NCBI GenBank assembly: GCA_946185535.1
Contig: CAMHJX010000005.1
Span: 1-64,000 of the forward strand
Origin: an uncultured Bacteroidales bacterium
GTDB lineage: Bacteria; Bacteroidota; Bacteroidia; Bacteroidales; F082
DNA length: 64,000 nucleotides
Direction: 5' to 3'
How positions within the stretch are numbered: position 1 is the stretch's first letter; every line of letters starts with the position of its first letter. A program made the translations under genes and the position numbers. The notes beneath the pieces are model-generated. The model saw only the letters and a list, made by a program, of their open reading frames with translations, did no database searches and was not told the DNA's origin. Below, in pieces: positions 269 through 46,676 of the stretch.

Positions 269-3200
269 TTACTTCACCACCAGCTTCCTGACAACCGTCC
301 CCTTCCCTTCCACAGTGATGCGAAGCGTGTAGACACCAGCGACATTCGGGGCGGTGAGGGTTTGTAGAGACGTTGCGCGCAACGTCTCTACACCCAGCGC
401 ATTGACTATTTCAACACGGACAGGATTCTTCATGTCGTCAGCAACATTGATGCTGAAGCGCTCGCCCACATTCACAGGGTTCGGGTAGACCTGCACCCTG
501 CTGGCAAACTCGTCCATGCCCGTCGTGCCTCTGAAGTGGATGGTATAGAGGTCGTCTGCTTCACCAACGATGGCATTCGCAACGAAGTCGAGGCTTTCCT
601 CGGCATCATAGTATTCCAAACCTGTCTCTGTGTCGTAGAGCCTGAAGCTCAATTCTGCGGCATCCTTGCCCGAAATGGTCAAGAAGGCCACATGGCGGTT
701 GAGGGGTTCGGCATAGGTCAGCTTCACGCTGCCTCGGCATTCGCCGTTGGCGGCAAAGGCTGCCAGTTCATAACTATCGGTGGTCAGTTCCTTGTCATCT
801 AGTTCCACCACGGCCATCACCGTCATGTTGTCGGGATAGGCGAAGGTGTTCGGCTTCCAGTGGTTGTGCTCTGCAGTGAGGTTCTGCCTCAGCTCTCCGC
901 TCCTAGTGTTGTCAGGATAGGTGAATGAGATAGGATTTCCATTCATCGAATAATACATAAGACCCATGCCAGGCTCGATGGTATTGAGGGAACCGAACCA
1001 GCCGTACTCTTCCCCATAATACTCCGAATAGCCCTGCTGCGACTTCACCCTGTCGCCCAACGTGGCCTCCAAGCCGCCTAATGCCACATTAATGTCCATT
1101 GCTGTCGATGGCATGTATCCTACCCACGACCAGCCTTGGCTCAGCGTGATGGGATGCTGCGAAGGAACAGCCAAGGCACCCGTCATAGTGACCGTGCAAG
1201 GCGCACTCGTGATGACCCTGTACGAAGACTCGTTGTTGATGCTTGTGAGCGAGCCCCACCAGCCGTAGGCTTCTCCATAATAGTCGATATAACCACTTGT
1301 CTGCGAACGGATAGCGAGTCCGTTGTCGCCCAAGCTGTCTTGTAACATGGTCAGACCATCGATACTGTCCTGCTCAATAAAGGTTGCCCACCAGTTGTAG
1401 CCTTCCGAGAAGTTGGAGGTTTGGGTGATAGTGTTTTGGACTTCGCTGAAGTTGGCTATCAAGGTTCTGTCGCCTGTAACAGTAAACGAATAAATCGGAG
1501 TGTCCGAAACTTGAATTCCGTTTTCCGTCCAGTTCGCGAAGGTATAGCCCTCATTGGGGGTAGCCGTCAAGGAGCATGAATTGCCTTGAAGGTATGAGCC
1601 TGCTCCAGTCACCGTGCCACCTTCAATTGGATTGGCCGTGGCAGTAATGGTAACATTGCTGGAACCAATTTGTATTGTAACTTGGTTGGAGGCCTCTGTT
1701 TCTCCGCCATAATAATTGGTCTTCACGTAATATGAATAGACACCTTCGGTCAAATTGTTATCACTATATGTTGGTTCACTCAAATTATTGGCGATGTTGG
1801 AGCCGTCCCTATACAAATTATAAGTATAGACACCGTCGGTGAGATGGGTTCGGATAAGGAAAGCAATTCCTTGGTTATTCATAACCCAACTTGTCGGGTC
1901 AGTGGTCATATAGTTTCCGTTGTTGTTCTCAGAAAACATACAGAAAACAGCAGGAGACGTAATACCTTCGACATCGCACAAAAACACCCAATAGTCGGAT
2001 GAAGCGTCAATTGATACCTTTTCTGCCAAATCAATGTCAATCCATCCTTCCGTTTCCACAAATACGTTTTGTTCGTTAACCTGGGTTTGAGGATGATTGT
2101 TCACTGTTCCCTTATAGATAAGTATTTTATATAAACCAGGTATTCTCGCATAAAACGATACCTTATAAACAGCCATGTTGGAATAAGCACTTAAATCTTC
2201 GGCAGGGTAGCGATGTCCCCAATAGGTAGTAGTGTTGTTGAATCCAGAATATCCATTAAAACTATTATCCCCATAAGTCAGGGAAGCTGAAGGGGTTGGG
2301 GGATAGCACCAATCGGGAGTCGACCAAGAAAGGTTGACCGTTTGGTCGGAGACTGTAGCAAGCAAATCGTCGACTACGGGTGTTGAATATGGGACGGAAA
2401 CAGATGCCACATTTGAAGATTCAGACAAATCACCCAACAGATCAACTCCCTTCACTATGTAGTTTAACTCACCGGCTATGGGACGCATGTCGGAAAAAAA
2501 GGTGGCATTGAGATATTGGCTTATTAATGTATTGTTGCAATATAAGTTATAGGAAGCTGCACCTTCGCAAGGCATCCAAGAGAGTTGTACGCCTCCTTCA
2601 ACCTGTTCGGCTTCTAAATTGGCAGGGCCAGGGAAAGTGATGGTGACGGGGGCATAATTGGAAGGCCACGAAAGGGTGCCATTTTCATCTATACATCTGA
2701 CATAGTAGGTGGTGGTGCCATAGTCAATGTGGACATCAAGATAGGAATTTTCGCTCCCGGAGGCTGTGGTATGGATTAATGAGCCATTGCGGTAAATATT
2801 GTAGGAAACTGCATTGTTGACTTCGTTCCAATTCAATTGTGCGTTTCTCACCCCAGGTTCAGTAATGAGACTTGCAGTTAATATCGGAGCTTCGGCAGCA
2901 CACGATGGGCTAGGCTGAGCGTAAAAAACAGCATTTTGGCTATCATTGAATTCTCCTATTGACCCCGACCCAATGCCTCCAGGACCAGGACTTAAGTCGT
3001 CCAAGGAATAATACTCGTCACAATAACCACTCCAGCCCCAATTGAAATGGAAATAATTACTATTATTATAACCATCACAGACAAAAGCGTGTCCTCCTCC
3101 AGAACCACTTCCGCAATACACAATCGGGCGGCTTTGGTCCAATTCTGCTTTGATCATATTCGTCCAATCGTTACTGGAATAATTAGCACGGTAAATCAAC

Positions 3201-4087
3201 TGGGTCTCGGGTGAATAATTGAAATAGTTGATGAGTGCGCCAGCTATACTTTCAGCAAATGCGCCGCTTCCACCTGCCCAACCCGGACCGTAATTCATGT
3301 CAACCGAAACACCACAATGGAACATTAATGTGGCTACTGCATTTTGTTCAGCTTCGGTGCTGTTGTCACTATACGAATTGAGCATATTGTCCCAGTCGTA
3401 TGTAGTGCTTCCGAAATCTGCACTCAGTGTTTGTCCATTCCATTCATAAGAGTGCATCCCAATACCTGTTGGAGGATAGTTCCAATACTTCATCATTTGA
3501 GCCATGGCGGTAGCCACGCAACCTGTTACTGTGCCGTCAGGACAAAGGTTGTTGTATGGCCAATCCTGGTCCCATTGGGTTTGAATCAACGGCGCTACCA
3601 CGGTGATTGCCCTACCCATATTGAGGTTGCCTTCGGCCAAGTCGCGCCATTGCCGCGCCACTTCAGCCGAGGCCCTTGTTTGATGCTCGACGGCATACTG
3701 GATTGCATCGCTGTATCCCTGAATCCAGGCTCTTTTGTTGGCAGGCATGTTTTCGATGTCGAATCGGCTTGTCAAAGAGTAGCCAAGAATGGGTTGCACA
3801 CAATCATCGGCGGCCAGCAAAACAAAACTGTTGTCTGTTGTGAACACATATACATTTGAGAATCCAGCAGTTGATGAAACCTCTGTCAATCCTATAGATC
3901 GTGAACCATTGTTGTTAAGAAAAGTAGTCGCTACTTGGCGAGCCCTACCTATTTCAACGGGATTAGCCTTCGCTCCCGAGTAGAGAAAAAGCATCAACAA
4001 CACCAAAAAAAGGGGGTTTACTCCCTTTCTATTGGCTTTGTACGTGGCATTATTCTCCCTACAATTTAATATTGTACTGTGTTTCAT
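269..4087 (-). CDS. T9SS-exported C10 family cysteine peptidase with FN3, jelly-roll and InlB repeat
   Basis: Secreted streptopain-type protease. The frame extends 8 codons upstream to 4111, but the Met at 4087 (MKHSTIL) aligns with paralogue starts and is preferred. Numbering from the longer frame: signal segment ending GAKA at about 48; Spi-like propeptide about 50-165; peptidase about 170-400 with catalytic Cys198 in GCVATAMAQ, His341 in GGGHAFV and Asn357 in FNWGWSG; two FN3-like units 410-575; a jelly-roll/cleaved-adhesin-like region 605-760; one InlB B-repeat 819-889; then the array's shared tail: duplicated GYNW module 897-1062, ECRG domain 1082-1195 and a T9SS sorting domain from about 1205 starting VYPNPV. 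It is a close architectural twin of the gene at 37535-42049. Inferred role: extracellular or surface proteolysis. The sorting domain contains an in-frame 30-bp palindrome (363-392). Confidence 0.93.
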   Translation of the reverse strand: MKHSTILNCRENNATYKANRKGVNPLFLVLLMLFLYSGAKANPVEIGRARQVATTFLNNNGSRSIGLTEVSSTAGFSNVYVFTTDNSFVLLAADDCVQPILGYSLTSRFDIENMPANKRAWIQGYSDAIQYAVEHQTRASAEVARQWRDLAEGNLNMGRAITVVAPLIQTQWDQDWPYNNLCPDGTVTGCVATAMAQMMKYWNYPPTGIGMHSYEWNGQTLSADFGSTTYDWDNMLNSYSDNSTEAEQNAVATLMFHCGVSVDMNYGPGWAGGSGAFAESIAGALINYFNYSPETQLIYRANYSSNDWTNMIKAELDQSRPIVYCGSGSGGGHAFVCDGYNNSNYFHFNWGWSGYCDEYYSLDDLSPGPGGIGSGSIGEFNDSQNAVFYAQPSPSCAAEAPILTASLITEPGVRNAQLNWNEVNNAVSYNIYRNGSLIHTTASGSENSYLDVHIDYGTTTYYVRCIDENGTLSWPSNYAPVTITFPGPANLEAEQVEGGVQLSWMPCEGAASYNLYCNNTLISQYLNATFFSDMRPIAGELNYIVKGVDLLGDLSESSNVASVSVPYSTPVVDDLLATVSDQTVNLSWSTPDWCYPPTPSASLTYGDNSFNGYSGFNNTTTYWGHRYPAEDLSAYSNMAVYKVSFYARIPGLYKILIYKGTVNNHPQTQVNEQNVFVETEGWIDIDLAEKVSIDASSDYWVFLCDVEGITSPAVFCMFSENNNGNYMTTDPTSWVMNNQGIAFLIRTHLTDGVYTYNLYRDGSNIANNLSEPTYSDNNLTEGVYSYYVKTNYYGGETEASNQVTIQIGSSNVTITATANPIEGGTVTGAGSYLQGNSCSLTATPNEGYTFANWTENGIQVSDTPIYSFTVTGDRTLIANFSEVQNTITQTSNFSEGYNWWATFIEQDSIDGLTMLQDSLGDNGLAIRSQTSGYIDYYGEAYGWWGSLTSINNESSYRVITSAPCTVTMTGALAVPSQHPITLSQGWSWVGYMPSTAMDINVALGGLEATLGDRVKSQQGYSEYYGEEYGWFGSLNTIEPGMGLMYYSMNGNPISFTYPDNTRSGELRQNLTAEHNHWKPNTFAYPDNMTVMAVVELDDKELTTDSYELAAFAANGECRGSVKLTYAEPLNRHVAFLTISGKDAAELSFRLYDTETGLEYYDAEESLDFVANAIVGEADDLYTIHFRGTTGMDEFASRVQVYPNPVNVGERFSINVADDMKNPVRVEIVNALGVETLRATSLQTLTAPNVAGVYTLRITVEGKGTVVRKLVVK
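363..392. repeat. Perfect 30-bp palindrome inside the T9SS sorting-domain coding sequence
   Basis: Positions 363-377 (TGTAGAGACGTTGCG) and 378-392 are exact reverse complements. On the minus strand the palindrome is read in frame as VETLRATSLQ within the sorting domain. Near-copies occur at the same place in three other array genes (8059-8088, about 22133-22162 decayed, about 42330-42360), and a related one lies between genes at 27568-27588. It resembles short palindromic repeats dispersed in many bacterial genomes. Confidence 0.8.
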
Positions 4088-4125
4088 TATGTTATGAACT
4101 ATTGTGAACAACTATATTAATTGGG

Positions 4126-4158
4126 CAAAAATAAGAAATCTTTGTAATTAAGAAGCAA
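4126..4158 (-). promoter_or_regulatory. Bacteroidota-type promoter of the first C10 peptidase gene
   Basis: Read on the minus strand, TATTTTTG (4126-4133) matches the -7 consensus TAnnTTTG, about 38 nt upstream of the ATG at 4087. A TTG (4156-4158) lies 22 nt further upstream as a weak -33 candidate. Confidence 0.5.
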
Positions 4159-4230
4159 TTAATATAACTGCTCAGAATAAATACCCATCTCTGACTTTCC
4201 TCCAACCTTGTTTTGGCAGTCTTTTTTTCA

Positions 4231-4267
4231 CTCTTCCTTCGCTCTTCTTTCGCTCTTCCTTCGCTCT
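4231..4267. repeat. 11-nt tandem repeat, 3.4 copies
   Basis: Units CTCTTCCTTCG / CTCTTCTTTCG / CTCTTCCTTCG / CTCT lie in the spacer between two array genes. Only one substitution separates the units. No coding role was seen. Confidence 0.8.
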
Positions 4268-4271
4268 AGCC

Positions 4272-4331
4272 ATACTGCTAGCATACTAAAGAGTATGCTT
4301 TGAGTATGCCAACAGTATGCCTAGAGTATGC
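4272..4331 (-). terminator. Clustered GCATACT/AGTATGC hairpins after the BACON/OB-fold gene
   Basis: The spacer just beyond the stop at 4342 carries several copies of AGTATGC and one GCATACT. An 8-bp perfect stem (4280-4287 with 4292-4299, 4-nt loop) can form, and the extra copies allow alternative pairings. The position suggests a terminator, but the repeated half-sites are unusual. Confidence 0.4.
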
Positions 4332-4341
4332 GAAAACCGGA

Positions 4342-7300
4342 TTATCTGACTACCAGCTTCCTGCAATAGACAGCTTTATTGTCGACGAGAATCTTGATGA
4401 TATAGACTCCAGTTGCTTCAGGTGCCACAAGACTGGCAGGTAATTTGGTGGAAGTCACTGTTGAGACGATTGCACCAAGGGCGTCTACAATCTCCAAACG
4501 AATGAGACAGGCTTCTGTATCGGCGAGACCAATGCTAAACTGTTCGCCACGATTGACAGGGTTAGGATAAACTTTCACTCTATTGGCCAACTCGTCCATG
4601 CCCGTCATGCCCCTAAAGTGGATGGTATAGAGATCATCTGCCCTACCCACAATGGCATTGGCAACAAAGCTGAGACTTTCCTCAGCGGCATCGTATTCCT
4701 TGCCTGTCTCCGAGTCGTAGAGCCTGAAGCTCAGATCAGCGGCATCCTTGCCCGATACGGTCAGGAAGGCCACATAGCGGTGCAACGGCTCGGCATACGC
4801 AAGCTTCACGCTGCCACGGCATTCGCCGTTGGCAGTGAAGGCGGCCAGCTCGTAGTTGTCGGAAGTGATTTCAGCACCTTCCAGTTCTACCACGGCCATC
4901 ATCGTCATGTTGTCGGGATAGGCAAAGGTGTTCGGCTTCCAGTGGTTGTGCTCGGCAGTCATGTTGGCCTTCAGCTCGCCTCCCCTGTTGCTGTCAGGAT
5001 AGGTGAATGTGACCGTCTCGCCGCTGGCCGAGTAGTACATCAGGCCCATGCCGGGCTCTATCGTATTGAGTGAGCCGTACCAGCCATAGTTCGGATAATA
5101 GTCGGCATAGCCCTGCTGCGACTTCAGCATGTCGCCATCCGAGGCTGCCATGCCCGCCATCGCCGTGTTGACATCCATCGCCGTGGATGGAACATAGCCC
5201 ATCCATGTCCAGCCATGGTTCAGCATGATGGGATGCTGCGAAGGCACGGCCTCGGTGCCCGTCATGGTAACCGTGCATGGCGTACTGGCAACCACCCTGT
5301 ACGAAGACTCGTTGTTGATGCTTGTGAGCGAGCCCCACCAGCCGTAGGCTTCTCCATAATAGTCGGTATAACCACTTGCCTGAGAGCGGATGGCAACACC
5401 ATTGCCGCCTAAGTTATTCTCCAGTATCTCCAATCCATTGATACCTTCCTGCTCGATGTAAGTCGACCACCAATTGTAGCCTTGGGCCAACTCGGTGGAT
5501 TGGGTGACGGTGGAGGTGGCTTTCTTGTAAAAAGCAAATGATTGATTCTTAATGTTGTTGTTGACAGAAGTATAGCATCTCCAATCGCTTCTGTTGTAAA
5601 TGCCGATATACCTTTCCGTGCTTGAATTAAACAAGTAATACGCTTGTTCTTCTTCGTCTATAACGCCTCCATCGACGATAGTAAACACATTGTTAAAATT
5701 TGTACCCACGCGCACCCCGTTATTCGCATTGGTGCAATACAACCATGTCTCAGCATTGCCGTAAGGATAGAAGGAGTAGCCATCGGTAGCATTGCCGCTA
5801 ATTTTCCATTGAAGATTCTCAGCGATTTCACCCGAGAGGGTATTGTCAACTATCGTAACTTCAATAGCAGTTGGTGCGGATGAAGTACCATTATCATTCG
5901 ACATGGCGTATGAATCATGTTCCTCGTCTTCGTATGTTCCCACAATAACAAAGATGTCGTTCTCAGTAAGGTTGGTAAGGTCGGTCAACACCCATTCGCC
6001 GGGAGCCGCATAAGCAGCCTGATAAACGGTAACCAAATTGGAATAATAAGAGCCTTCTACTACCCATGTACCACCCCCATCTCTTTGCTTTAATTCAGGT
6101 TCCACCACATCAATAATCCCGTCATCATAAACTTTGAAATAAGCCGTGCGAGCAACACCTTGATTGGCATCAACAACAAAATGAACGTTATAGTTGGCAT
6201 CAATCTCTGCGGTAATCCAGTCGTAATCGACCATAGTTTCACCGTCTTCGGCATAAAATCCCACATGTAGGCTTAGGTATTCAGGATCCAAATTCTGGTA
6301 GGTTACGTTGAGGTAGCCTTCTCCACCATCAGCAGACACTTCAATTTCATAATTGTCAAGTAGGATGGCTGGCTCGGTGCTGGCAATCTCTTCAAGGCTA
6401 CCCAACATGGTGTTATAATAAGTACTGGTGGAAATGCCGACATAATAACCCGTCACCTTGACTTGCTTGCCATCCAAAGCCGTGATCTCATCCACATTGA
6501 GAGGATAGGAGAGGCTACCCATGGCCGTCGTGGCACCATTAATGTTAGTAATGTTGTAGTGTGTGCCGTTGATGGAAAGCGTACCTTCATACTGGACATA
6601 GCATGACAATTGGGGAGGTGTAGTGGAAGCCACTCTGGCATCCATCTGCTCGCCGGTGATAACGATTGGGTCTTCAGCAACATAATTCGATGTTTCAGCA
6701 GCAGTTACAGTGGTGGCGTTGTTGAACTCATACACACCGCCATAGACAACGACGCTACCTGAAAGCTTCACCATGTCACCGATGTTGTAATCATCTGGAG
6801 TGTAATTCGCGTTATAATAATAGACATAGCCAGTACCATCACCAACCATGAAACCTCTCGCACTCTTGGCAACGATAGTGCCCTGCACGGTATATGTGCC
6901 AGTGGCGGTGATGTCGGAGATGTTGTTTACGGCATCAGGATTGGCAGCTTGCGTCACCGTAACATTTTTGGTGATAGTCTGGTCGGTGTTGTAGGTATAG
7001 GTAAGGGTAACGGCAGCCGTGCGTGGAGCAGCCGTTGCGTTGGCCGTGCAGGTGAAAGGTATCGTTGTATTCACCGTGCCAAGGGAAAGCCAATCCGCTG
7101 TAGTAGAAGCTGTCAACTCGCCACCTGTAACGGCATTGTTAATTGTGTATTCTATGGAACCCGAAGTGGCATCGAATGCGATTTCAACATTAGCTGCTGT
7201 AATGGTAGGATTAGGTGTACCACTTTCGGAATAAGTGATGGTGAAAGTGGCGATTCTTCTGTGCCCTGAGGTGCCGCCAATGGTGAAGGTGACCTCATTG

Positions 7301-7656
7301 GCATTACCAGTCCAGGTTCCCTCGGCGTAGTTATCTGAATCGGTCGTGATTTCATTTGAACCTTCGCCTGAAGCAAACCCGAGCGTGATTTCAGTTAATG
7401 TGTAATCAGAGGTAACGGTAAAATAGTTACCGCCATAGCATCTGATGGCTGCACCTGTGTTGTAATACTTTGGTGGATTGTTGCTGTTTGTGCCTTGGAA
7501 GAACTCGGCATAAACATGGTCATCGAAAGAGACGCTTTCGATGAGTTGTCCATTCTCGTACCCTTGGTCTGCTGCCGTCCAAGTAATTGTTTGGGCCCAT
7601 GTTAGACCGCTCATTAGCAGCAAGATTGTCAATAGAAATGTAATCCTTCTTTTCAT
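4342..7656 (-). CDS. T9SS-exported BACON / OB-fold multidomain surface protein
   Basis: 1104 residues with an ordinary short signal peptide (MKRRITFLL..., cleavage after LTWA), unlike the conserved long n-regions of its neighbours. Visible regions: beta-rich domain about 25-145; BACON-like domain 150-237 (TADWLSLG, VTVTQAA); OB-fold-like region 245-420 of the kind seen in Bacteroidota surface proteins (GTIVAKSARGFMVGDGTGYVYYY begins it); a second BACON-like domain 430-548; a beta-trefoil/ricin-like region 555-710; then the shared tail (GYNW module from about 722, ECRG domain, T9SS sorting domain ending KLVVR). It has no InlB repeat and no catalytic motif I recognise. BACON domains are usually linked with carbohydrate or mucin contact, so a binding role is inferred. 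The sorting domain lacks the palindrome seen in its neighbours. Confidence 0.9.
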   Translation of the reverse strand: MKRRITFLLTILLLMSGLTWAQTITWTAADQGYENGQLIESVSFDDHVYAEFFQGTNSNNPPKYYNTGAAIRCYGGNYFTVTSDYTLTEITLGFASGEGSNEITTDSDNYAEGTWTGNANEVTFTIGGTSGHRRIATFTITYSESGTPNPTITAANVEIAFDATSGSIEYTINNAVTGGELTASTTADWLSLGTVNTTIPFTCTANATAAPRTAAVTLTYTYNTDQTITKNVTVTQAANPDAVNNISDITATGTYTVQGTIVAKSARGFMVGDGTGYVYYYNANYTPDDYNIGDMVKLSGSVVVYGGVYEFNNATTVTAAETSNYVAEDPIVITGEQMDARVASTTPPQLSCYVQYEGTLSINGTHYNITNINGATTAMGSLSYPLNVDEITALDGKQVKVTGYYVGISTSTYYNTMLGSLEEIASTEPAILLDNYEIEVSADGGEGYLNVTYQNLDPEYLSLHVGFYAEDGETMVDYDWITAEIDANYNVHFVVDANQGVARTAYFKVYDDGIIDVVEPELKQRDGGGTWVVEGSYYSNLVTVYQAAYAAPGEWVLTDLTNLTENDIFVIVGTYEDEEHDSYAMSNDNGTSSAPTAIEVTIVDNTLSGEIAENLQWKISGNATDGYSFYPYGNAETWLYCTNANNGVRVGTNFNNVFTIVDGGVIDEEEQAYYLFNSSTERYIGIYNRSDWRCYTSVNNNIKNQSFAFYKKATSTVTQSTELAQGYNWWSTYIEQEGINGLEILENNLGGNGVAIRSQASGYTDYYGEAYGWWGSLTSINNESSYRVVASTPCTVTMTGTEAVPSQHPIMLNHGWTWMGYVPSTAMDVNTAMAGMAASDGDMLKSQQGYADYYPNYGWYGSLNTIEPGMGLMYYSASGETVTFTYPDSNRGGELKANMTAEHNHWKPNTFAYPDNMTMMAVVELEGAEITSDNYELAAFTANGECRGSVKLAYAEPLHRYVAFLTVSGKDAADLSFRLYDSETGKEYDAAEESLSFVANAIVGRADDLYTIHFRGMTGMDELANRVKVYPNPVNRGEQFSIGLADTEACLIRLEIVDALGAIVSTVTSTKLPASLVAPEATGVYIIKILVDNKAVYCRKLVVR

Positions 7657-7787
7657 AGTATAAATATTTTAATTGTTTGATATTTAATTGATTACTTGTT
7701 TTACTTCATCTTTTTTCCGGAGGGACAATTAATAACAATAAAGACTCTCTGGATAATCATTATGTTTTTTTGGCTATTAACAGGGGT

Positions 7788-7795
7788 CAAATTTA
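7788..7795 (-). promoter_or_regulatory. -7 box of the BACON/OB-fold gene
   Basis: TAAATTTG on the minus strand matches TAnnTTTG and lies about 130 nt upstream of the ATG at 7656, implying a long leader. No good -33 element was seen at the usual spacing. Confidence 0.35.
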
Positions 7796-7895
7796 CGAAA
7801 TTTTTTTCAAGTAACGGAAAAAAGCGAGATTGGTCGAAAAAATACCGAAGTAAAAACAATGCAGTTTAGTTTTGAACAGTTACTCACAAAAAGAA

Positions 7896-7934
7896 AGTAG
7901 CCGAAATCTCAATTTTCATTCGATTCCGGCTACT
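7896..7934 (-). terminator. 13-bp hairpin after the first BspA-like gene
   Basis: Arms 7896-7908 and 7922-7934 pair with a single G-U/mismatch around a 13-nt loop, about 20 bp beyond the stop at 7956. The arm sequence (AGTAGCCGAAATC) resembles that of the hairpin at 201-252, so the terminators look duplicated along with the genes. Confidence 0.7.
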
Positions 7935-7955
7935 CGTTTTAGAAACAAGGAAGGA

Positions 7956-21978: not shown

Positions 21979-22031
21979 AATATTAGTTTTTATGTGAATA
22001 GTATTGTTGTTGCTACTCTCTTGACCGAAAC

Positions 22032-27554: not shown

Positions 27555-27567
27555 ATCGTTGTTTGAA

Positions 27568-37374: not shown

Positions 37375-37463
37375 TAGTTTTTTTTTATTGTTTTCGATTT
37401 TTTTACCATTTTAATGTATTTTTATCATTTTTGGTAAATGTTCAAAAACAAAACACTGTAAAA

Positions 37464-37497: not shown

Positions 37498-37534
37498 ACC
37501 AAAATAATGTCACGAATTGCTTGTTTGACTTAAC

Positions 37535-40500
37535 TTACTTGACCACTAATTTGCGGACAATTGTTTCTTTCCCTTCAATGGTGATGCGCAGCATATAGAC
37601 ACCTGCGACATTCGGGGCAATAAGGGTTTGGTGTGATGATGTGCATATCGTCTCTACTACGCCCAATGTGTTGATGATTTCAACACGGACAGGATTTGTC
37701 ACATCCTCAGCCATGCCAAGGCTGAACTGTTCCCCACAATTCACAGGGTTGGGAAACACTTTTATTTGCCAGTCGAACTCGTCAACGTTGTTCAAGCCAT
37801 GGAAATGGAGTACCATAGGCTCGAATATTGTGCCTATCGAGGCATCGGCATTGAACATCACCGTCTCGTCCACATCAAAGAATTCTGTGTGGGCTTCCCA
37901 ATCGTACAACCCGAAGTGAAGCTCTACTGGGGAATCTCCATAGATGGTCATGAAGGCATAATAGCGGCCTGTAATGTCAACATACATCGTCTTGATACTT
38001 CCGCGACACTCGCCGTTGGCATCAAAGACGGCCAATTCATAATCCTCCGATTGGATTTCCTCGCCATCAAGGTCGATGACGGCCAACAAGGTCATGTTGG
38101 TCGGATAGGCATGTGGATTCGGTTCCCAATGGTTGTTCTCGGCAGTGAGGTTTTTCTTCAGTTCTCCACCCCTGTCATTGTTAGGATAAGTGAAGGTGAC
38201 TGGATTGCCATTCATCGAATAGTACATCAAACCCATGCCAGGCTCGATGGTGTTGAGCGAACCGAACCAACCGTAGTTTGGATAGTAATCTGCATAACCT
38301 TGCTGCGACTTCAGTTTGTCGCCTGCAGTCGAGGTCAAGCCTGCCATGGCTACGTTCACATCCATGGTAGCGGTAGGTACATAACCAATCCATGTCCAGC
38401 CCTGGCTCAATGTAATGGGGTGCTCAGAAGGAATAGCCTTGTTGCCCGTCATGGTGACTGTGCAAGGTGTGTTCGTGATGACCCTATAGGAGGATTCATT
38501 GTTGATGGTAGACAGCGAACCATACCAACCGTAATCCTGATAGTAGTCTGTGTATCCGCTGGCCTGCGAACGGATACTGACACCGTTGTTTCCCAAACCT
38601 TCCTGCAACAAACCCAAGCCATCCATATCGCTTTGCTCTATGTAGGAGCACCACCAATTATAGCCTTGCGAGAAAGTGGAGGTTTGGGTAATAGTACTAT
38701 TGGGTTTCTCAATACAGTTGGACCAACTGATTTCGGTGCTGCCAGATCCGCCATTACCTTCAACATAGCAACGAATCATCCAGCCATAGCCAGGCAGTCC
38801 AGCATCAGCAAGATCAAACCAAGAACTTCCATCGATACTAACCCAACGATTGTTGGCATCACCTGAATCATTACAAGCACTAGCTGGATAAGAATCACCG
38901 CTCTGGTAAAATGTAATCCACAAATTTTGATTAGGATTGATGGCCACAGGATCACTAAAAGTAATCTCATGGAAATCATTATTTCCAACAGGGGTAATAT
39001 TTTGAGAGTAGATTAATGTTTCAGGAACAGCATCACCACCCGAATAGACATTAAGAATAATCGTTCCATTGTTATCACCATTCTCATAAAGCGCGACTTT
39101 GGTCAGTCTATTATCAGTCAACATGCTAGCTGGAAACATGGAGCCCCAATAAAGAGTACCACCAGCACCTACACTGGTAGCATAAGTACCATCATCGTAA
39201 TAAAGCCAACCATCACGAGAATTCACATGCGAAGGTTCGCTTGAATGGTTATTGCCGGGCACGCGATTCAAAAAAGCCGAAACGTCAAGTTTATGATGGT
39301 TAATAGTTATAGGTGCGTCATTCCAATGGATTTCGCCAGCATTACCCCTTTCATTTATCACACTGACACCGTATCTGTAATTCCCTGGGGCTAATTCCGA
39401 CCATCCGTAGTCAATGAATTGGTTCCCAGTCACATTATTAGCAATCATTTCTTCTCCACTTCCGTCGCAATGAGCGCGATAAACACAGTACATTGACCTA
39501 ACAGACCTTGAGGAGGACAATGTAATGTCATCAAGACACATAATGTATTGATCGAAACTATCACCCTTCGATCCTTCCGACCAGTACACTTTTACATATT
39601 GGCTATTCGGATCATTCGAATTTGGATAATATTCAGCAAAAACCTCTAGTTCCTGCGAAGGTGATGTGTTCGCATTAAAGTTGGCCACAAAAGTGGCATT
39701 CTCAGTCACCGTGAAACTTATTGTGGCGTTGGTGGAAATCTCATTGCCGTTCTCAGTCCAATTGACAAAAGTATAGCCTGTATTGGCTGTAGCCGTCAGG
39801 GTGCAAGTATTGCCTTGGAGGTATGAACCCGCTCCTGTCACCGATCCTCCTTCAGGTGGGTTTGACGAAGCAGAAATGGTATAATAAGTGCCAGATCCTA
39901 TTTGCACTGTAACTTGATTGGAAGCATCCGTTTCGCCAGCATAATAATTGGTTTTTACATAATAATTGTATACACCACCTGCCAAATTATTGTCGCTAAA
40001 ACTAGTATTGTTCAGGTTGCTGGCAATGTTTGAACCGTTTCTATAAACATTATAGGTATAGGTTCCATCTGTGACAAAAGTGCGAATAAGGAATGCCGCA
40101 TCGTCCCAAGTATACAACCAAGAATTTGGATCGGTAGAATAATAGTTGCCTTCACTGCCAGAATAACTACAATAGGTTGCTGGAAAGCTTCTGGCTTCAG
40201 GGTCATATATAAACACCCAAAGGTCATTAGAAGCATCAATTTGTATTGGAGTAGACAAATCAATATCATACCAACCCGTTGACCCTACTGAAAAAGACTG
40301 TTGCAGAAGTTGTGTCTGTGGGAGATCATAAGAGGTTCCCTTATATACAAACACTTGGTAAGAACCCATTTCATTGGCATAGAACGACACCTTGTAGACT
40401 TTCATATTATTATAACTGCTTAGACTTGAAGCAGGATAACGATGTCCCCAATATATACAAGTCGATCCATTATTATAACCCAAAGCTATACCTGTATAGT

Positions 40501-42049
40501 TACCGGTTCCGTATGTCATTGTTGCCGTTGGCGTTGCAGGATAGCACCAGTCGGGAGCTGTCCACGCAAGGTTGACATTGTTGCCCGAAACGGTAGCCGC
40601 CAAATCGTCAACCACTGGTATGGGATACGCAACGGTGACAGTCACTGCATTTGACGACAATGATAGTCTTCCTTGGAAATCAACGCTCCTCACGTAATAG
40701 ACAGAACTACCGTACGGCGCAATATCTGAATAAGACGTTGAAGAAACTTCGCCTACAAAACTATTGTTGCAATAGACTTTATAACTGGAAGCTCCAGTAG
40801 CGGCAGACCATGAGAGCGTCACATTGCGTCCGTTTTGCGAATAAGTCAGATTTACGGGTGCATTAGCCGTGCATTCCGATGGACGAATGCCAAAAACCGC
40901 ACCTTGATTATCATTATAAATACCATTGTCGCCCGAACCTATCCCACCAGGGCCTGGATTAAGATTGTTGACGACATAATACTCATCACAATAGCCACCC
41001 CAACCCCAATTGACATGAAAATAATTATTGCTATTGTATCCATCAAACACAAAAGCATGTCCTCCTCCAGAGCCTGATCCATTATACCAAATAGGACGAC
41101 TTAGGTTGAGATCGTTTTTCAGCATAACAATCCAATCATTATCCGTATAATCAGAACGGAAACGATAAACAACATCTGATGAATAGTTGAAATAATTCTT
41201 TAAAGCCTCTGCCACTATTTTATTACCTGCACCACTGCCAGTCGGCGAATAATTCATATTAACAGACACACCACAATGGTACATCAAGGTCGCAACAGCC
41301 ATTTTTTGCGCATAAGTGCTCGAACCATAGTAGCTATTAATCATATTGTTCCAATCGTAAGTAGTGGATTGGAAGTCGGCTGACAGTTCACCATAAGTAG
41401 GATGGGTATAGGAATGTGATCCAATACCATGTTCAGGATAGTTCCAATATTTCATTATTTGGGCCATGGCTGTAGCGACACATCCTGTCACCGAACCACC
41501 TGGACACAATAAATTGTATGGATCGCCTTGATCCCATTGCGTTTGAATCAGAGGAGCCACCGCTGTGATGGCTCTACCAGCGTTAGGGTTGCCTTCGACT
41601 AAGTCACGCCATTGTTGCGTCACTTCAGATGAAGCCCTAAGTTGATTGTCAACAGCATACCGAATCTCATTGCTATATCCTTGAATCCAAGCCCTCTTGT
41701 TGTCAGGCATGTTCTCAAAATCGAAACGACCTGTAAGAGAGTAACCAAGTATGGGCTGCACACGATCATCAGCAGCCATCAAAACAAAACTTGTCTCCGT
41801 AGTGAACACATATACATTGGAAAAACCAACGACTGATGACACATCAGCCAGTTCGATTGAACGTACACCATTGTTGTTTAGAAATGTCGTTGCAACTCGC
41901 CGTGCCCTTTCTGCATCAACCGAATTAGCTTTCGCTCCCAAAGAAAATAAGAGCATAAATACTACCAAAGTGAGAAGTTTTCTTCCTTTTCTAATGGCTT
42001 CGCTTAGGGTATTATTATCCCTGTCATTTAGTAAAATGCTGTTTTTCAT
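37535..42049 (-). CDS. T9SS-exported C10 family cysteine peptidase (second compact copy)
   Basis: 1504 residues. Signal segment MKNSILLNDR... to GAKA; Spi-like propeptide about 42-155; peptidase about 160-390 with Cys190 in GCVATAMAQ, His331 in GGGHAFV and Asn347 in VNWGWGG; FN3-like units; a jelly-roll/cleaved-adhesin-like region about 510-660; one InlB B-repeat; a second jelly-roll region (YYDDGTYATSVGAGG) around 980-1150; then the GYNW module, ECRG domain and T9SS sorting domain. Head and body follow the gene at 269-4087, but the second jelly-roll is extra and the ECRG domain is the most diverged of the array (HAYPTNMTLLAVIDLDG). The palindrome region of the sorting domain is decayed. Presumably an extracellular protease of overlapping function. 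Confidence 0.93.
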   Translation of the reverse strand: MKNSILLNDRDNNTLSEAIRKGRKLLTLVVFMLLFSLGAKANSVDAERARRVATTFLNNNGVRSIELADVSSVVGFSNVYVFTTETSFVLMAADDRVQPILGYSLTGRFDFENMPDNKRAWIQGYSNEIRYAVDNQLRASSEVTQQWRDLVEGNPNAGRAITAVAPLIQTQWDQGDPYNLLCPGGSVTGCVATAMAQIMKYWNYPEHGIGSHSYTHPTYGELSADFQSTTYDWNNMINSYYGSSTYAQKMAVATLMYHCGVSVNMNYSPTGSGAGNKIVAEALKNYFNYSSDVVYRFRSDYTDNDWIVMLKNDLNLSRPIWYNGSGSGGGHAFVFDGYNSNNYFHVNWGWGGYCDEYYVVNNLNPGPGGIGSGDNGIYNDNQGAVFGIRPSECTANAPVNLTYSQNGRNVTLSWSAATGASSYKVYCNNSFVGEVSSTSYSDIAPYGSSVYYVRSVDFQGRLSLSSNAVTVTVAYPIPVVDDLAATVSGNNVNLAWTAPDWCYPATPTATMTYGTGNYTGIALGYNNGSTCIYWGHRYPASSLSSYNNMKVYKVSFYANEMGSYQVFVYKGTSYDLPQTQLLQQSFSVGSTGWYDIDLSTPIQIDASNDLWVFIYDPEARSFPATYCSYSGSEGNYYSTDPNSWLYTWDDAAFLIRTFVTDGTYTYNVYRNGSNIASNLNNTSFSDNNLAGGVYNYYVKTNYYAGETDASNQVTVQIGSGTYYTISASSNPPEGGSVTGAGSYLQGNTCTLTATANTGYTFVNWTENGNEISTNATISFTVTENATFVANFNANTSPSQELEVFAEYYPNSNDPNSQYVKVYWSEGSKGDSFDQYIMCLDDITLSSSRSVRSMYCVYRAHCDGSGEEMIANNVTGNQFIDYGWSELAPGNYRYGVSVINERGNAGEIHWNDAPITINHHKLDVSAFLNRVPGNNHSSEPSHVNSRDGWLYYDDGTYATSVGAGGTLYWGSMFPASMLTDNRLTKVALYENGDNNGTIILNVYSGGDAVPETLIYSQNITPVGNNDFHEITFSDPVAINPNQNLWITFYQSGDSYPASACNDSGDANNRWVSIDGSSWFDLADAGLPGYGWMIRCYVEGNGGSGSTEISWSNCIEKPNSTITQTSTFSQGYNWWCSYIEQSDMDGLGLLQEGLGNNGVSIRSQASGYTDYYQDYGWYGSLSTINNESSYRVITNTPCTVTMTGNKAIPSEHPITLSQGWTWIGYVPTATMDVNVAMAGLTSTAGDKLKSQQGYADYYPNYGWFGSLNTIEPGMGLMYYSMNGNPVTFTYPNNDRGGELKKNLTAENNHWEPNPHAYPTNMTLLAVIDLDGEEIQSEDYELAVFDANGECRGSIKTMYVDITGRYYAFMTIYGDSPVELHFGLYDWEAHTEFFDVDETVMFNADASIGTIFEPMVLHFHGLNNVDEFDWQIKVFPNPVNCGEQFSLGMAEDVTNPVRVEIINTLGVVETICTSSHQTLIAPNVAGVYMLRITIEGKETIVRKLVVK

Positions 42050-42087
42050 AATGTTATGGTATTTTATTATAAACTATAGCTTTGAGG

Positions 42088-42095
42088 CAAATATA
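42088..42095 (-). promoter_or_regulatory. -7 box of the second compact C10 peptidase gene
   Basis: TATATTTG on the minus strand, about 38 nt upstream of the ATG at 42049, fits TAnnTTTG. Confidence 0.45.
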
Positions 42096-42186
42096 AGAAT
42101 TTTCTTATTTTAAAAAAGTTTTTACAAAAATAAAATAATTTAAATGCTGAAGCATGTTTCTGGCGAAATACCAAAACCCATAATTA

Positions 42187-42222
42187 TAGAAGCCCATAGG
42201 TCTTCACTCCTATGGGCTTCTA
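42187..42222 (-). terminator. Perfect 14-bp hairpin after the second BspA-like gene
   Basis: Arms 42187-42200 (TAGAAGCCCATAGG) and 42209-42222 are exact reverse complements with an 8-nt loop, 23 bp beyond the stop at 42246. Confidence 0.8.
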
Positions 42223-42245
42223 AAAAGAAAACTACAAATTGTTTT

Positions 42246-45200
42246 TTACTTGACCACCAACTTACGGACAATTGTCCCTTTCCCTTCCACAGTGATACGC
42301 AGCGAGTAGACACCGGCGACATTCGGGGCGGTGAGGGTTTGTACAGATGTTGCGCGCAACGTCTCTACCACACCCAACGTGTTCACGATTTCAACATGCA
42401 CCTTGCCTGCATCCTCGACACTCAGCCCGATGCTGAATTGTTCTCCAACATTCACGGGGTTAGGATAAACTTTCACCCTATTGGCGAACTCGTCCATGCC
42501 AGTAGTGCCTCTGAAGTGGATAGTATAGAGGTCGTCAGCTTCACCCACGATAGCATTGGCCACAAAGTCGAAGCTTTCCTCAGCGTCATAGTATTCCATA
42601 CCTGTTTCCTTGTCGTAGAGCCTAAAACTTAATTCTGTGGCATCCTTGCCCGAGATGGTCAGGAAGGCCACGTAGCGGTTCAATGGTTCAGCATAGGTCA
42701 GCTTCACGCTGCCTCGGCATTCACCGTTAGATGCGAAGGCGGACAGTTCGTAGTGCTCCGACTTAAGTTCCTCTCCGTTGAGTTCGACCACCGCCATTAC
42801 CGTCATGTTGTCGGGATAAGCGAAGGTACTCGGCTTCCAGTGGTTGTTTTCAGATGTGAGGTTGGCTTTCAGCTCTCCTCTCCTGTTGTTATCAGGATAG
42901 GTCAATGTTACTACTTCATCGTTTGCCGAATAGTACATCAAACCCATGCCTGGTTCTATCGTATTCAGAGAACCAAACCAACCATAGCCTGGATAGTAGT
43001 CCGAATAGCCCTGCTGCGACTTCAGCTTGTCACCTGCAGTAGCATCCAAACCAGCCATCGCTACATCGACACTCATCGATGTCGATGGCACGTATCCTAT
43101 CCATGTCCACCCTTGACTCAAAGTGATGGGGTGTTCAGACGGCACTGCGGTGTTGCCTGTCATAGTAACCGTGCAGGGTTCGCTGGTAATAACCCTATAT
43201 GAAGATTCGTTGTTAATATGCGAAAGCGATCCAAACCAACCATAGCCTTGGTAGTAGTCAGTGTAGCCATTGGCCTGCGAACGGATGGAGACACCGTTGT
43301 CACCCAAGCTTTCCTCCAACATGCCTAAGCCGTTAATATTACTTTGTTCTATATAAGAACACCACCAATTGTAGCCTTGCGAGAAGTATGAGACTTGGGT
43401 ATTTTCTTGTTGGTCCTCAATGAAATTAGCTACAAAAGCAGCCTCTTCTGTCACGATAAAACTGCAAGTGTCGTTTGTAGAAACTTCAAAGCTGTCTTTG
43501 GTCCAGTTGACAAAAGTATAACCTTCGTTGGCCATAGCAATCAGGGTACATGTTTGACCCTCTTCGTAGTTGCCTGCACCACTCACTGTTCCACCTTCCT
43601 CTGGATTGGCCGTGGCGATGATATTGTAATAAACAGGGGCATCAATGAAGTTGGCAATGTAGGTAGCATCTTCTGTCACGGTGAAGCTGTAGGAGGCGTC
43701 TGTGGAGACCTCAACGCCATCTTTGGTCCAGTTAGCAAAAATGTAGCCTTCATTGGCCACAGCGATGAGAGTGCAGATCACACCTTGATGGTATGAACCG
43801 CCACCAATCACTGAGCCACTTTCCGCAGGATTGACTTCAACGTTGATGTCGTATGAAACGAGTGTTGTGTAGAAATTAGCCTCGTAAGTGCATGACTCTG
43901 TCACGCCAAAGCTGTATGTGGCCTCTGTGGAAACCACCACACCATTCTTCGTCCAATTAAGGAATACATAATCCATATTACCTATGGCCGTAAGGGTACA
44001 CATTTCGCCATAGCTATAATTGCCTGCACCCGTTGCACTTCCCGCTATTGCAGGATTAATCACCACTGCAATTTCAAAGTCGTCACAAATCTCGTTCAAT
44101 GCATCTGTCCATTCCGACCAATTGCCGTCAGAATAGTTTTCCGTTGTTTCACAAGGAATATTGATGATTCTGTCTGTTGCATTATTTGCAAACACATCCT
44201 CGCCGATAGAAGGTGCCTGTGTCGATTGTAAGTTTATCGTATTTAACTGGGTGCATTCGCTAAATACTCCCGTACCTATCTCTGTTACCGACTCTGGAAG
44301 GGTTACCTTGGTTAAGCCTGAACAAGAATAGAAGGCTGTGTTGCCCACCATCGTCACGTTGTTGCCCATGATGATCTCCGACAGACCATTGCAGTTTTGA
44401 AAAGCACTGATTCCTATGGTGTTTACCGAATTAGGGATCACCAAAGTACCTGTTAGGCGCCAACAATTGTTAAAAGCATTGTCATTAATCTGGATTACAG
44501 AGTTCGGGATGGTCAAGATACCTGTAAAGTTAGCATTTCTGAACATATTTCTTGGAATCCTTACTACATTATCACCTATAATAAGGTGGCCACTGCAGCC
44601 TTGGAAGGGATAGTTATAAGAACCATCATTAATGTCAACATGGTTTGTCACATTATAGTTTACTTGTGAAAGGCCTGAACAATAATAGAATGCACTACCA
44701 CCAATCGTTGTCACCGAGCTTGGAATGCTCAAGTATCCAGAAAAACTATTACAATTGTAAAAGGCATAACTTCCTATCGTGGTCACGGAATTAGGAATCA
44801 CGATGTTGCCGACAAAGCTTGAACAGCGTTCAAAAGCCGAGCTTCCGATCGTGGTCACGGAGCTTCCTATGGTCAGCGTGCCTGTAAATCCATGGCAATT
44901 GTAAAAAGCAGAACTTCCTATTGAGATTACGGAGTTAGGGATCACCAAATTACCTGTTAAACCATAGCAATCATAAAAAGCGGCGTCTCCAATTATGGTC
45001 ACTGAATTGGGAATCACAATATCACCAGCAAGGCCAGTACAACCCGAAAAAGCAGCACTTCCTATCGAAGCCACAGCGTTCCCTATGGTCAGCGAACCCG
45101 ATAATGCAGAGCAGCCTTGAAATGCATAGTTTCCTATAGTAATGACGGAGTTGGGAATGTTGATACCGCCAGTTAAGCTCCGGCAACCATAGAATGCGTA

Positions 45201-46676
45201 ATTACCAATCGAGTTCACAGCGTTTCCAATAGTCAACTGACCAGAATAGCTACTGCAATTGTAAAAAGCATAGTTTCCAATCGAGGTCACAAAAGGCGGT
45301 AATGTGATGTAGGTCAGTCCATTGCAATTCGAGAAAGCATTTGCACTGATGGAAGATAAGCCAATAAAATACTGTAGTTCATTAAACGAAGTGATTTCAG
45401 TGTTGTTTCGGAAATAGTTGCTCAAATCCGTTACAGATGCGGCTTCATAATAACTCAACTCACCATCGTCATTGGTATCCCAATGGGAGATACAGATACT
45501 CTTCACGTTGGCATCGGCAAAGACAATGTTGTCCTCTGGCACAAAATGAGCCACAAAAGTCGCACTGTCCGCCACGATGAAGGAATATTCCAAATCCGTA
45601 GAAACAATGGCATCATCTTTCGTCCAATTAGCAAAGACATAACCTGAATTGGCAGTAGCGGTCAGTGTACAAGTGTCGCCATAATCATACGACCCTTCAC
45701 CACTCACCATACCCGCTTCTTCTGGGTCGGTCAAGGCCGTGATGCTAAACGGCAAAGCAAAATGAGCTACCAAGTCACGGTTACGTGCCACTAAAAAGTT
45801 GTAATCTGACTCGGCAGAAACTATTCTGTCCCCCTCAGTCCAATACATGAAGGTATATCCTTCTTCAGCTGTCGCCGTTAATGTGCAGATTTGACCTTGT
45901 TGATAGGTACCTTCACCACTTATAGTGCCACCTTCGGAAGGATTAGCCGTGGCTGTGATTTGGACATCCTCTCCATATTCATTGACAACAAGATAAGCAC
46001 GAACCATCCATGTGTAGTTGAGGCCATAGGAGGCAGCATCATCCCAATCCACACCGTTAAGGCTCACATAGCGTCCGTTGGCGTCGCCAGTATTGGCACA
46101 CACGGCAGCAGGGTAGGCAGCACCACTCTCGTTATAGAAAACCACCCAAAGATTCTCGGTTGGGTCGATGAAGACAGTATCAGCAAACTCAAACTCAACA
46201 AAGTTGGCAGCTCCTGTGAAGGTCACATTTGTCTGACCAACAGGCGTTGCAGGAGCATTATCCCCATCATTGTAGATGGTCACAGTACCTGTCATGGCCA
46301 TGTAATCGTAGGCAGCCACCTTGGTAATCATATTTCCATAGTAGCTACCGGCAGGGAACTTCACACCCCACCAAAACTGACTGCCACCAGTACCCATGGC
46401 AGTTTCCAACTGACCATTGTCGTAGTAAAACCACCCGCCTTCGCCCAATCTGTCGTTGTTAAAAGGACTTCCATTGTCGAAATCGAAGCTGTGACTCGGC
46501 GTGTCAGCCACATGGCCAATCACCGACAAGGAGGCTTCGTTGTTGTTGATGGAATGGCTGAGGTTACTCTCTAAGGAGGCTTGTGCCATCGCTTTTGTCA
46601 TCCCCACTACACTTAGCAGCAAGACGAGTAGGGTGGGCAAAACCGCCTTTTTACATTGTAAAATTCTTGTTTTCAT
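42246..46676 (-). CDS. T9SS-exported BspA-like leucine-rich repeat protein with five InlB repeats
   Basis: Start at 46676 (MKTRILQCKK) matches paralogue starts; the frame itself runs 11 codons further up to 46709. Numbering from the longer frame (1487): signal peptide to KAMAQ; a jelly-roll/choice-of-anchor-like region about 80-250; two InlB B-repeats about 254-395; an EF-hand-like loop DTNDDGELSYYEA near 415; a long BspA/LRR_5 block about 435-860 (SIGNYAFYNCSS-type units); three more InlB repeats about 895-1100; GYNW module about 1110-1270; ECRG domain about 1290-1400; and a T9SS sorting domain. Unlike the other BspA-like gene it has no second, diverged ECRG domain. Adhesion or host/bacterial surface contact is inferred from the family. 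Its promoter is almost the same as that of the gene starting at 12902. Confidence 0.92.
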   Translation of the reverse strand: MKTRILQCKKAVLPTLLVLLLSVVGMTKAMAQASLESNLSHSINNNEASLSVIGHVADTPSHSFDFDNGSPFNNDRLGEGGWFYYDNGQLETAMGTGGSQFWWGVKFPAGSYYGNMITKVAAYDYMAMTGTVTIYNDGDNAPATPVGQTNVTFTGAANFVEFEFADTVFIDPTENLWVVFYNESGAAYPAAVCANTGDANGRYVSLNGVDWDDAASYGLNYTWMVRAYLVVNEYGEDVQITATANPSEGGTISGEGTYQQGQICTLTATAEEGYTFMYWTEGDRIVSAESDYNFLVARNRDLVAHFALPFSITALTDPEEAGMVSGEGSYDYGDTCTLTATANSGYVFANWTKDDAIVSTDLEYSFIVADSATFVAHFVPEDNIVFADANVKSICISHWDTNDDGELSYYEAASVTDLSNYFRNNTEITSFNELQYFIGLSSISANAFSNCNGLTYITLPPFVTSIGNYAFYNCSSYSGQLTIGNAVNSIGNYAFYGCRSLTGGINIPNSVITIGNYAFQGCSALSGSLTIGNAVASIGSAAFSGCTGLAGDIVIPNSVTIIGDAAFYDCYGLTGNLVIPNSVISIGSSAFYNCHGFTGTLTIGSSVTTIGSSAFERCSSFVGNIVIPNSVTTIGSYAFYNCNSFSGYLSIPSSVTTIGGSAFYYCSGLSQVNYNVTNHVDINDGSYNYPFQGCSGHLIIGDNVVRIPRNMFRNANFTGILTIPNSVIQINDNAFNNCWRLTGTLVIPNSVNTIGISAFQNCNGLSEIIMGNNVTMVGNTAFYSCSGLTKVTLPESVTEIGTGVFSECTQLNTINLQSTQAPSIGEDVFANNATDRIINIPCETTENYSDGNWSEWTDALNEICDDFEIAVVINPAIAGSATGAGNYSYGEMCTLTAIGNMDYVFLNWTKNGVVVSTEATYSFGVTESCTYEANFYTTLVSYDINVEVNPAESGSVIGGGSYHQGVICTLIAVANEGYIFANWTKDGVEVSTDASYSFTVTEDATYIANFIDAPVYYNIIATANPEEGGTVSGAGNYEEGQTCTLIAMANEGYTFVNWTKDSFEVSTNDTCSFIVTEEAAFVANFIEDQQENTQVSYFSQGYNWWCSYIEQSNINGLGMLEESLGDNGVSIRSQANGYTDYYQGYGWFGSLSHINNESSYRVITSEPCTVTMTGNTAVPSEHPITLSQGWTWIGYVPSTSMSVDVAMAGLDATAGDKLKSQQGYSDYYPGYGWFGSLNTIEPGMGLMYYSANDEVVTLTYPDNNRRGELKANLTSENNHWKPSTFAYPDNMTVMAVVELNGEELKSEHYELSAFASNGECRGSVKLTYAEPLNRYVAFLTISGKDATELSFRLYDKETGMEYYDAEESFDFVANAIVGEADDLYTIHFRGTTGMDEFANRVKVYPNPVNVGEQFSIGLSVEDAGKVHVEIVNTLGVVETLRATSVQTLTAPNVAGVYSLRITVEGKGTIVRKLVVK
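42330..42360. repeat. Partly decayed copy of the sorting-domain palindrome
   Basis: The core GTTGCGCGCAACGTCTCTAC is kept but the left arm has substitutions. It is read in frame as VETLRATSVQ in the T9SS domain of the second BspA-like protein. Confidence 0.65.

Follow-up and report, generated by a model that had tools for sequence, protein, structure and literature searches.

The cargos of the type IX secretion system (T9SS) that carry a type-A C-terminal sorting domain (CTD) include, in Porphyromonas, the gingipains, HagA, PPAD and CPG70. Here we analyse a locus of this kind in an uncultured Bacteroidales bacterium with a genome of 3.67 Mb in 86 contigs. The DNA analysed, called the window below, is the first 64 kb of the 137-kb contig C5, and it holds an array of eight genes, g1 to g8, encoding giant proteins in which different N-terminal parts (heads) are joined to one shared C-terminal tail. 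This tail consists of a duplicated GYNW module (G), an ECRG domain (E) and a type-A CTD (C). As T9SS cargo, the array proteins belong to a known kind: with the Porphyromonas cargos they share a terminal type-A CTD, overlapping cargo families (C10, C25, cleaved adhesin, M14 and PAD) and, by a crude hydrophobicity rule, probably a signal-peptide-like start. Unlike those cargos, the array has G-E or E-G-E ahead of the CTD with heads exchanged over it, and some homologous heads here lack a CTD and have G as their end. When the locus is compared with that of a close relative, RUG14699, heads prove to have been replaced at the tail boundary. The swapping of front ends at this joint suggests a natural plug-and-play system for varying what the cell displays.

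The nearest published parallel that we found in the open-licence literature is the domain rearrangement of P. gingivalis surface proteins, in which, according to the excerpted text of the source, domain rearrangement, allelic exchange and gene conversion diversify modular T9SS proteins (PMC5266723). Modular T9SS surface proteins diversified by rearrangement and gene conversion are what both cases have in common; the excerpts describe variation of cleaved-adhesin and DUF2436 domains behind catalytic domains, whereas here whole heads vary over a kept tail inside one tandem array. In Candidatus Paraporphyromonas, three of the four genes of a GH5 cluster carry T9SS CTDs (PMC5831590). This is again a case of neighbouring multi-domain genes with T9SS CTDs in rumen Bacteroidetes, but its genes encode related GH5 enzymes, and the available portions of that article do not mention a shared G-E unit. 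Polymorphic toxins, such as the TANFOR proteins of Bacteroidetes, resemble the array, in the excerpts at hand, by joining one conserved part to many variable parts (PMC7073777, PMC3482391), with the polarity reversed: here the constant part is C-terminal and the variable part N-terminal. The array was rejected as a member of that group, which has a constant N-terminal part and a variable C-terminal toxin; no toxin families are among the Pfam families reported for the heads. The tail unit, its partner gene and head exchange over the tail were not found in the open-licence literature searched.

The array and its shared tail

The eight consecutive minus-strand open reading frames (ORFs) extend from 269 to 46709, are named from low to high coordinate, and encode proteins of 1280, 1104, 1648, 2987, 1766, 3239, 1504 and 1487 residues. 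The original prediction of giants with a common tail was confirmed, as the last 388-391 residues of all eight align over their full length at 57.1-97.4% identity. The predicted order of parts, G (about 187 residues), then E (about 125) and C (about 75), is likewise present in all eight, with an amendment for g3, g4, g5 and g6, where a second E stands directly before G and makes the tail E-G-E-C. G is a duplicated module, and its two halves in g8 align with each other. The genes and tail parts are as follows:

269..4111, minus strand: g1, I69 prodomain and C10 peptidase head, InlB-type repeat, G-E-C tail
872..1438, minus strand: g1 GYNW pair (G)
497..871, minus strand: g1 ECRG (E)
272..496, minus strand: g1 T9SS type-A CTD (C)
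4342..7656, minus strand: g2, BACON head, G-E-C tail; RUG14699 has another head in the same slot
4954..5517, minus strand: g2 G; the kept tail begins here, and the head upstream is replaced in RUG14699
4579..4953, minus strand: g2 E
4345..4578, minus strand: g2 C
7956..12902, minus strand: g3, BspA/LRR_5 (leucine-rich repeat, LRR) head, E-G-E-C tail
9105..9455, minus strand: g3 upstream E
8568..9128, minus strand: g3 G
8193..8567, minus strand: g3 E
7959..8192, minus strand: g3 C
13072..22035, minus strand: g4, cleaved-adhesin and LamG head, E-G-E-C tail
14236..14583, minus strand: g4 upstream E
13684..14244, minus strand: g4 G
13309..13683, minus strand: g4 E
13075..13308, minus strand: g4 C
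22032..27332, minus strand: g5, E-G-E-C tail; the Pfam matches of the head are InlB- and PKD-type repeats only
23187..23534, minus strand: g5 upstream E
22641..23201, minus strand: g5 G
22269..22640, minus strand: g5 E
22035..22268, minus strand: g5 C
27607..37326, minus strand: g6, I69, C10 and cleaved-adhesin head, E-G-E-C tail
28771..29121, minus strand: g6 upstream E; the RUG14699 DNA match starts beside it, at 29154
28219..28779, minus strand: g6 G
27844..28218, minus strand: g6 E
27610..27843, minus strand: g6 C
37535..42049, minus strand: g7, I69 and C10 head, G-E-C tail
38141..38701, minus strand: g7 G
37766..38140, minus strand: g7 E, the most diverged E among the eight tails
37538..37765, minus strand: g7 C
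42246..46709, minus strand: g8, BspA/LRR_5 head, five InlB-type repeats, G-E-C tail (structure modelled)
42852..43412, minus strand: g8 G
42477..42851, minus strand: g8 E
42249..42476, minus strand: g8 C

Pfam finds InlB-type repeats in six of the eight proteins. Because the contig starts only 268 bases past g1, the array is probably cut at the contig edge.

That the two middle domains belong to no named family, as had been proposed, holds for Pfam, in the five pieces of G and E examined, and for PDB sequences. None of these pieces had a credible match in Pfam at E-values as high as 10; profiles of the window G and E matched nothing among PDB sequences up to an E-value of 1, and the weak PDB matches of broader G and E profiles were judged to be chance. 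In AlphaFold modelling of the g8 tail, G and E are predicted to pack rigidly (pTM 0.91, pLDDT 95.7), and confidence is lowest (57) at residues 301-310, a putative loose linker ahead of the CTD. The type-A CTD (TIGR04183 / PF18962) is present at the C-terminus of the array proteins, and that of g8 is predicted to lie close to the NucA CTD in structure. The translocon protein SprA (TIGR04189) was found in 57 of the 60 genomes searched, this one included; two of the misses are genomes less than 65% complete, and the third belongs to another family and is complete. This genome has at least 150 matches to the type-A sorting domain (best 150 of 202 candidates), which predicts a large T9SS secretome. 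The array proteins would be secreted and surface-located.

Heads exchanged over kept tails

The locus is also present in RUG14699: eleven genes that flank it are 94.7-100% identical at the protein level, and g8, g7, g5 and residues 1-1114 of g1 are found there at 91.9-96.4%. The g2 slot holds the BACON protein here and an LRR/InlB protein in RUG14699. In bins of 75 columns, DNA identity in this slot stays at 38-53% as far as the bin that ends at window position 5483, and the following bin is at 95%; the blastn match begins at 5507 and the tail at 5517. Past the joint, G is 84-100% identical, the region around E 77-89% and the CTD 85-95%. For a 653-residue piece of the g2 head, no orthologue was found in the RUG14699 genome as assembled, the best match being 46% over 94 residues. 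Another jump is seen in the g6 slot, where identity stays at 32-51% as far as the bin that ends at 29126, reaches 84% in the next bin and is 83-100% from there on, and where the upstream E begins at about 29121, beside the jump. In the g3 slot the 5′ part is different; DNA identity is 52-91% for much of the LRR region, rises to 91-99% over the upstream E and G, and is 71-87% in the E and C that follow. No counterpart of g4 was found between the g5 and g3 orthologues of RUG14699.

The array of RUG14699 runs past its g1 orthologue and continues with a transposase, one further tail gene, which is frame-broken, and a protein that contains E three times. Its far end is matched, at 91.9% DNA identity over 3.3 kb, by contig C47 of our genome, which carries two further tail genes. 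In this last slot the head is again another one, the tail is 59-87% identical, rising to 84-92%, and the DNA beyond is nearly identical. The transposase gene, of the DDE type, lies between the g1 orthologue and the next tail gene (L181:6973-8559), and both tails next to it are frame-broken as assembled. On C47 (L117), ORFs of 565 residues (4989-6686) and 779 residues (6958-9297) stand between the two tail genes.

Mosaicism is also seen within the tails. Along a RUG14699 tail, the window tail that matches it best changes, and for 16 tails the trees of the G segment and of the E+C segment reject each other (approximately unbiased test, p 3e-21 and 8e-64). The syntenic pairs of g1, g2, g3, g5, g7 and g8 are each recovered at 100% support in the G tree; g3/r3 and g1/r1 stay unpaired in the E+C tree. 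From the head swaps and the mosaic tails we infer recombination within shared tail DNA. Another history would be plain tandem duplication, where alike tails are recent copies whose heads diverged or were lost, with no exchange. The domain sets of g4 and g6 are similar and their tails are 97.4% identical, so duplication probably occurred; as an account of the array it is nonetheless very unlikely and was already disfavoured, for unrelated head families stand over tails of, for instance, 69-82% identity (g1, with its C10 head, against g2, BACON, and g3, LRR), the head-tail joints between species are sharp and the trees of the tail halves are incompatible.

We consider it likely that the tail serves both as a module for T9SS export and anchoring and as a recombination platform for head exchange. 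The array would be a set of T9SS cargos sharing one old C-terminal unit, (E-)G-E-C, in which C probably routes each giant through the SprA translocon and, judging by the type-A family, is probably cleaved at the loose linker ahead of it. G and E, one rigid body in the model, would stay as the surface-proximal end of the exposed protein, perhaps as a stalk or docking body. Closely similar tails would act as shared DNA, and recombination between them would join a kept tail to a new head. The cell could thereby switch a peptidase, an LRR adhesin or a lectin-like head in each slot, and the export end would not have to be rebuilt.

Several observations weigh against this interpretation. Replacement of a whole gene followed by gene conversion of its tail would look alike and yield the same pattern as head exchange. 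In the g2 slot the E part drops back to 77-85% DNA identity, and the g3 slot changes gradually, without a sharp joint. Two RUG14699 tails, R63027 and R68691, are frame-broken as assembled, and seven of the eight array CTDs miss Pfam's own cut-off for this domain. In other genomes, many of the tail genes occur singly or in pairs and do not form long arrays. Finally, the base-level comparison is of one pair of close genomes, a metagenome-assembled genome (RUG14699) and an incomplete draft (ours), and giant repeats may be misassembled.

Clustering, head variety and age of the tail

Profile searches of this genome gave 25 G matches and 22 E matches. A same-strand neighbour within 13 kb was found for 19 of the 25 G matches, against a random mean of 2.1, and in three relatives 12 of 21, 11 of 19 and 12 of 19 G matches were clustered among the matches listed (random means 1.4-1.7); some G matches of genome G022 fall in one protein with three G copies. 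At E-values up to 1e-10, G occurs in 53 of the 100 relatives searched: in 47 of 60 from the same genus (this genome counted) and in 6 of 40 from other families, with one match each. The named relatives, from rumen, reticulum and abomasum samples, are Bacteroidales or Bacteroidia. Among 183 non-redundant G- or E-bearing ORFs from large loci, 86 end in G-E-C. The G-E-C proteins whose start is intact number 77; the heads of 65 of them were scanned over the first 750 residues and contain 28 Pfam families at E-values up to 1e-6: InlB-type repeat (43 heads), LRR_5 (22), C10 (12), DUF7619 (5), IgGFc_binding (3) and, in single heads, C25, cohesin, BACON and others. The check asked for in the original prediction, whether tails occur in clustered arrays with variable heads, thus comes out positive, with clustering in four genomes and 28 head families, and the cassette-like design that it envisaged is supported by this clustering and variety together with the heads replaced over kept tails between close relatives.

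Across the phylum, a broad G profile finds 29 of 394 genomes at E-values up to 1e-8, this genome counted. The 28 G loci outside it comprise 10 E-G-E-C, 1 E-G-C, 13 G-C and 4 G-only loci; three of the last stop just after G and one runs off its locus. Thirteen ORFs of 2104-4896 residues with E-G-E-C ends are spread over nine genomes, with a partial case in a tenth (G484), and in the four such distant proteins scanned, Pfam names nothing over E or G. A broad E profile finds 12 of the 394 genomes at E-values up to 1e-6, and 11 of these 12 also carry G (Fisher p 5e-13, a value that is too strong because six of the E rows in the profile come from three of these genomes). With the weak single match of G339 left aside, ten distant genomes remain, and all of their 51 scored E matches fall within an E-G-E-C gene or in the first one or two frames downstream of one. 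These wider scans score at most 8 candidates for G and 11 for E in each genome, and copy numbers are lower bounds. The tail is thus not confined to this array: it is an old unit at the C-termini of Bacteroidota proteins, and this rumen genus has amplified it.

A LolA-like gene (window 46875-47510) lies between the array and a cluster at 47874-58964 that encodes ketosynthases, a carrier protein, an acyltransferase, an O-methyltransferase, a ketoreductase and an aromatic amino acid lyase, and which we take to resemble an aryl-polyene or flexirubin-type pigment cluster.

Proteins ending in G and E-first companion genes

In a second class of 55 ORFs the protein stops at the end of G, without E or CTD. 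No CTD match lies within 700 nt downstream, in any frame, for 54 of them, and at least three look like broken longer genes. Their heads, scanned over the first 1200 residues in 39 of 46 G-ended ORFs, represent 32 families, including C25 with propeptide (7), M14 (5), endonuclease I (3), C10 (3), S8 (2) and PAD (1), several heads being near-identical orthologues. By a crude hydrophobicity rule only, signal-peptide-like starts are present in 67 of 97 G-E-C, 37 of 50 G-ended and 71 of 246 other ORFs. From the listed C25 matches of the genus we picked 60 loci, mostly among the top ones and a few further down; in these the protein ends in a plain CTD (48), a G-E-C type (2), G (6, one with 20 further residues after it) or dockerin-like repeats recognised by eye (3), or is cut by the contig (1).

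Different ends occur on homologous heads. L199, which ends in G, is 75.5% identical over 1630 columns to L203, which ends in G-E-C; L205 and L200 (G end) are 70-71% identical over roughly 800 to L225 (plain CTD), and L098 (G end) is 57% identical over 1312 to g7 of the window. Of 48 G-ended heads, 29 match a plain-CTD head and 40 a G-E-C head (E-values up to 1e-30), many of these matches covering part of the length only. Since homologous heads carry different ends, C-terminal arrangements are interchangeable over them in nature. The original prediction of one export and display tail is right about the shared tail and too narrow otherwise: because G alone also ends CTD-less proteins, this tail is one among several arrangements for the same kinds of head. 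Dockerin-like repeats, by eye, in place of a CTD end the gingipain-type C25 proteins of L226 (our contig C12:86135-89879), L206 and L230; with the Pfam Cohesin match on one G-E-C head, there may be a cohesin-dockerin system for peptidases in these rumen Bacteroidales.

G could be an alternative T9SS sorting domain, recognised by a shuttle and allowing export without a type-A CTD. The G-ended proteins have the same head families and signal-peptide-like starts, 6 of the 60 C25 loci end in G, and three proteins of the distant family f77 (L259, L269, L272) stop just after G without a CTD. We nevertheless regard this function as improbable. Distant G mostly precedes a CTD (10 E-G-E-C, 1 E-G-C and 13 G-C of the 28 loci), no known CTD type was recognised in two window G pieces, which lack a Pfam match, and since some C25 proteins end in dockerin-like repeats, a missing CTD alone need not mean a sorting signal.

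A second and more plausible, though still doubtful, function for G is docking. Here G would be a docking module and E its receptor, so that CTD-less G cargos would be held by a separate E-first protein anchored by its CTD or by a lipid; G-E-C would be a fused receptor, and multi-E proteins would be scaffolds. The many CTD-less ORFs that end in G alone, with C25, M14, C10, S8 and PAD among their heads, agree with this proposal, as do the homologous heads (57-76% identity at best) that end in G, G-E-C or plain CTD. E also starts separate signal-peptide-like proteins, which mostly end in a CTD and in several cases have a weakly G-like middle. In the genus loci an E-first gene without G comes next after 10 of 58 G-last ORFs (a small number of which have just a partial G, close to their start) and 11 of 80 G-E-C genes, against none of 498 ORFs without G or E; because the loci were chosen around G and several rows are one orthologous locus, the p-values of this comparison overstate the case. 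Two more G-ended C25 genes (L199 and L237) have an E-E frame just downstream.

In distant genomes, an E-first gene lies directly downstream in 9 of 15 E-G-E-C loci, from seven families (L290, L292, L293, L294, L295, L297, L298, L302 and L303, as opposed to L291, L296, L299, L300, L301 and L304). These companions measure 137 to 1946 residues, and those of L302 and L303, at 137 residues, comprise hardly more than a lipoprotein-type start and one E; the lipobox pattern matched L302 only, and the lipobox of L303 was judged by eye, which counts against docking. The near-constant company of E and G described above (11 of 12 genomes, and all 51 scored E matches in the ten distant genomes) and the predicted rigid packing of G and E within one chain are also consistent with it. 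On the other side, an E gene as the immediate downstream neighbour is lacking for 48 of the 58 G-last ORFs and for 6 of the 15 distant loci, the p-values are inflated by the choice of loci around G, the orthologous rows and the six rows from three distant genomes in the E profile, and the outer-membrane crossing of CTD-less cargos is left unexplained. Our own locus L125 (contig C7) also lacks the E gene that its relatives have: it has only a G-ended gene, before an acetyl-CoA-hydrolase-like gene, and the relatives (L094, L102-L104, L106) have a G-ended gene plus an E-CTD gene at this conserved locus.

In the cohesin-dockerin system of the cellulosome, enzymes carry a duplicated C-terminal module, and the receptors are single or repeated on an anchored partner. 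If docking is right, the duplicated terminal module (G) and the single or repeated receptors (E) on an anchored partner would be alike in design. Unlike in that system, Pfam dockerin or cohesin matches were absent from the five G and E pieces tested, and no dockerin calcium-loop repeats were found in G, two pieces of which have no Pfam match at E-values up to 10.

The E-first companion genes may help to anchor G-bearing proteins, and docking of G on E between separate molecules is a tentative extension of this. Head exchange over an export tail and docking can both be true. One could speculate that G and E are the halves of an undescribed Bacteroidota surface-docking system, whose ancestor was an E-G-E-CTD giant with an adjacent E-first partner gene and which gave rise to the array later, in the rumen genus. 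In such a system the duplicated terminal G of giant or enzymatic cargos would be captured by E domains, either those of an anchored companion or those of the cargo itself. It is an equally uncertain thought that, under such a system, heads in the rumen genus recombine onto the docking tail or onto G alone, without a CTD.

The T9SS literature that we encountered centres on the CTD. Here a larger conserved unit stands ahead of it and keeps its order across distant Bacteroidota, often with an adjoining companion gene, and the heads joined to this constant export end are exchanged. Should G dock on E, the two would form a new protein-docking pair, which would account for the partner gene, its lipoprotein form and the CTD-less cargos, including how CTD-less gingipain-type enzymes might be held. 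The unit thus offers a specific candidate mechanism, open to experiment, by which some Bacteroidota could vary their giant surface proteins and keep them in place.

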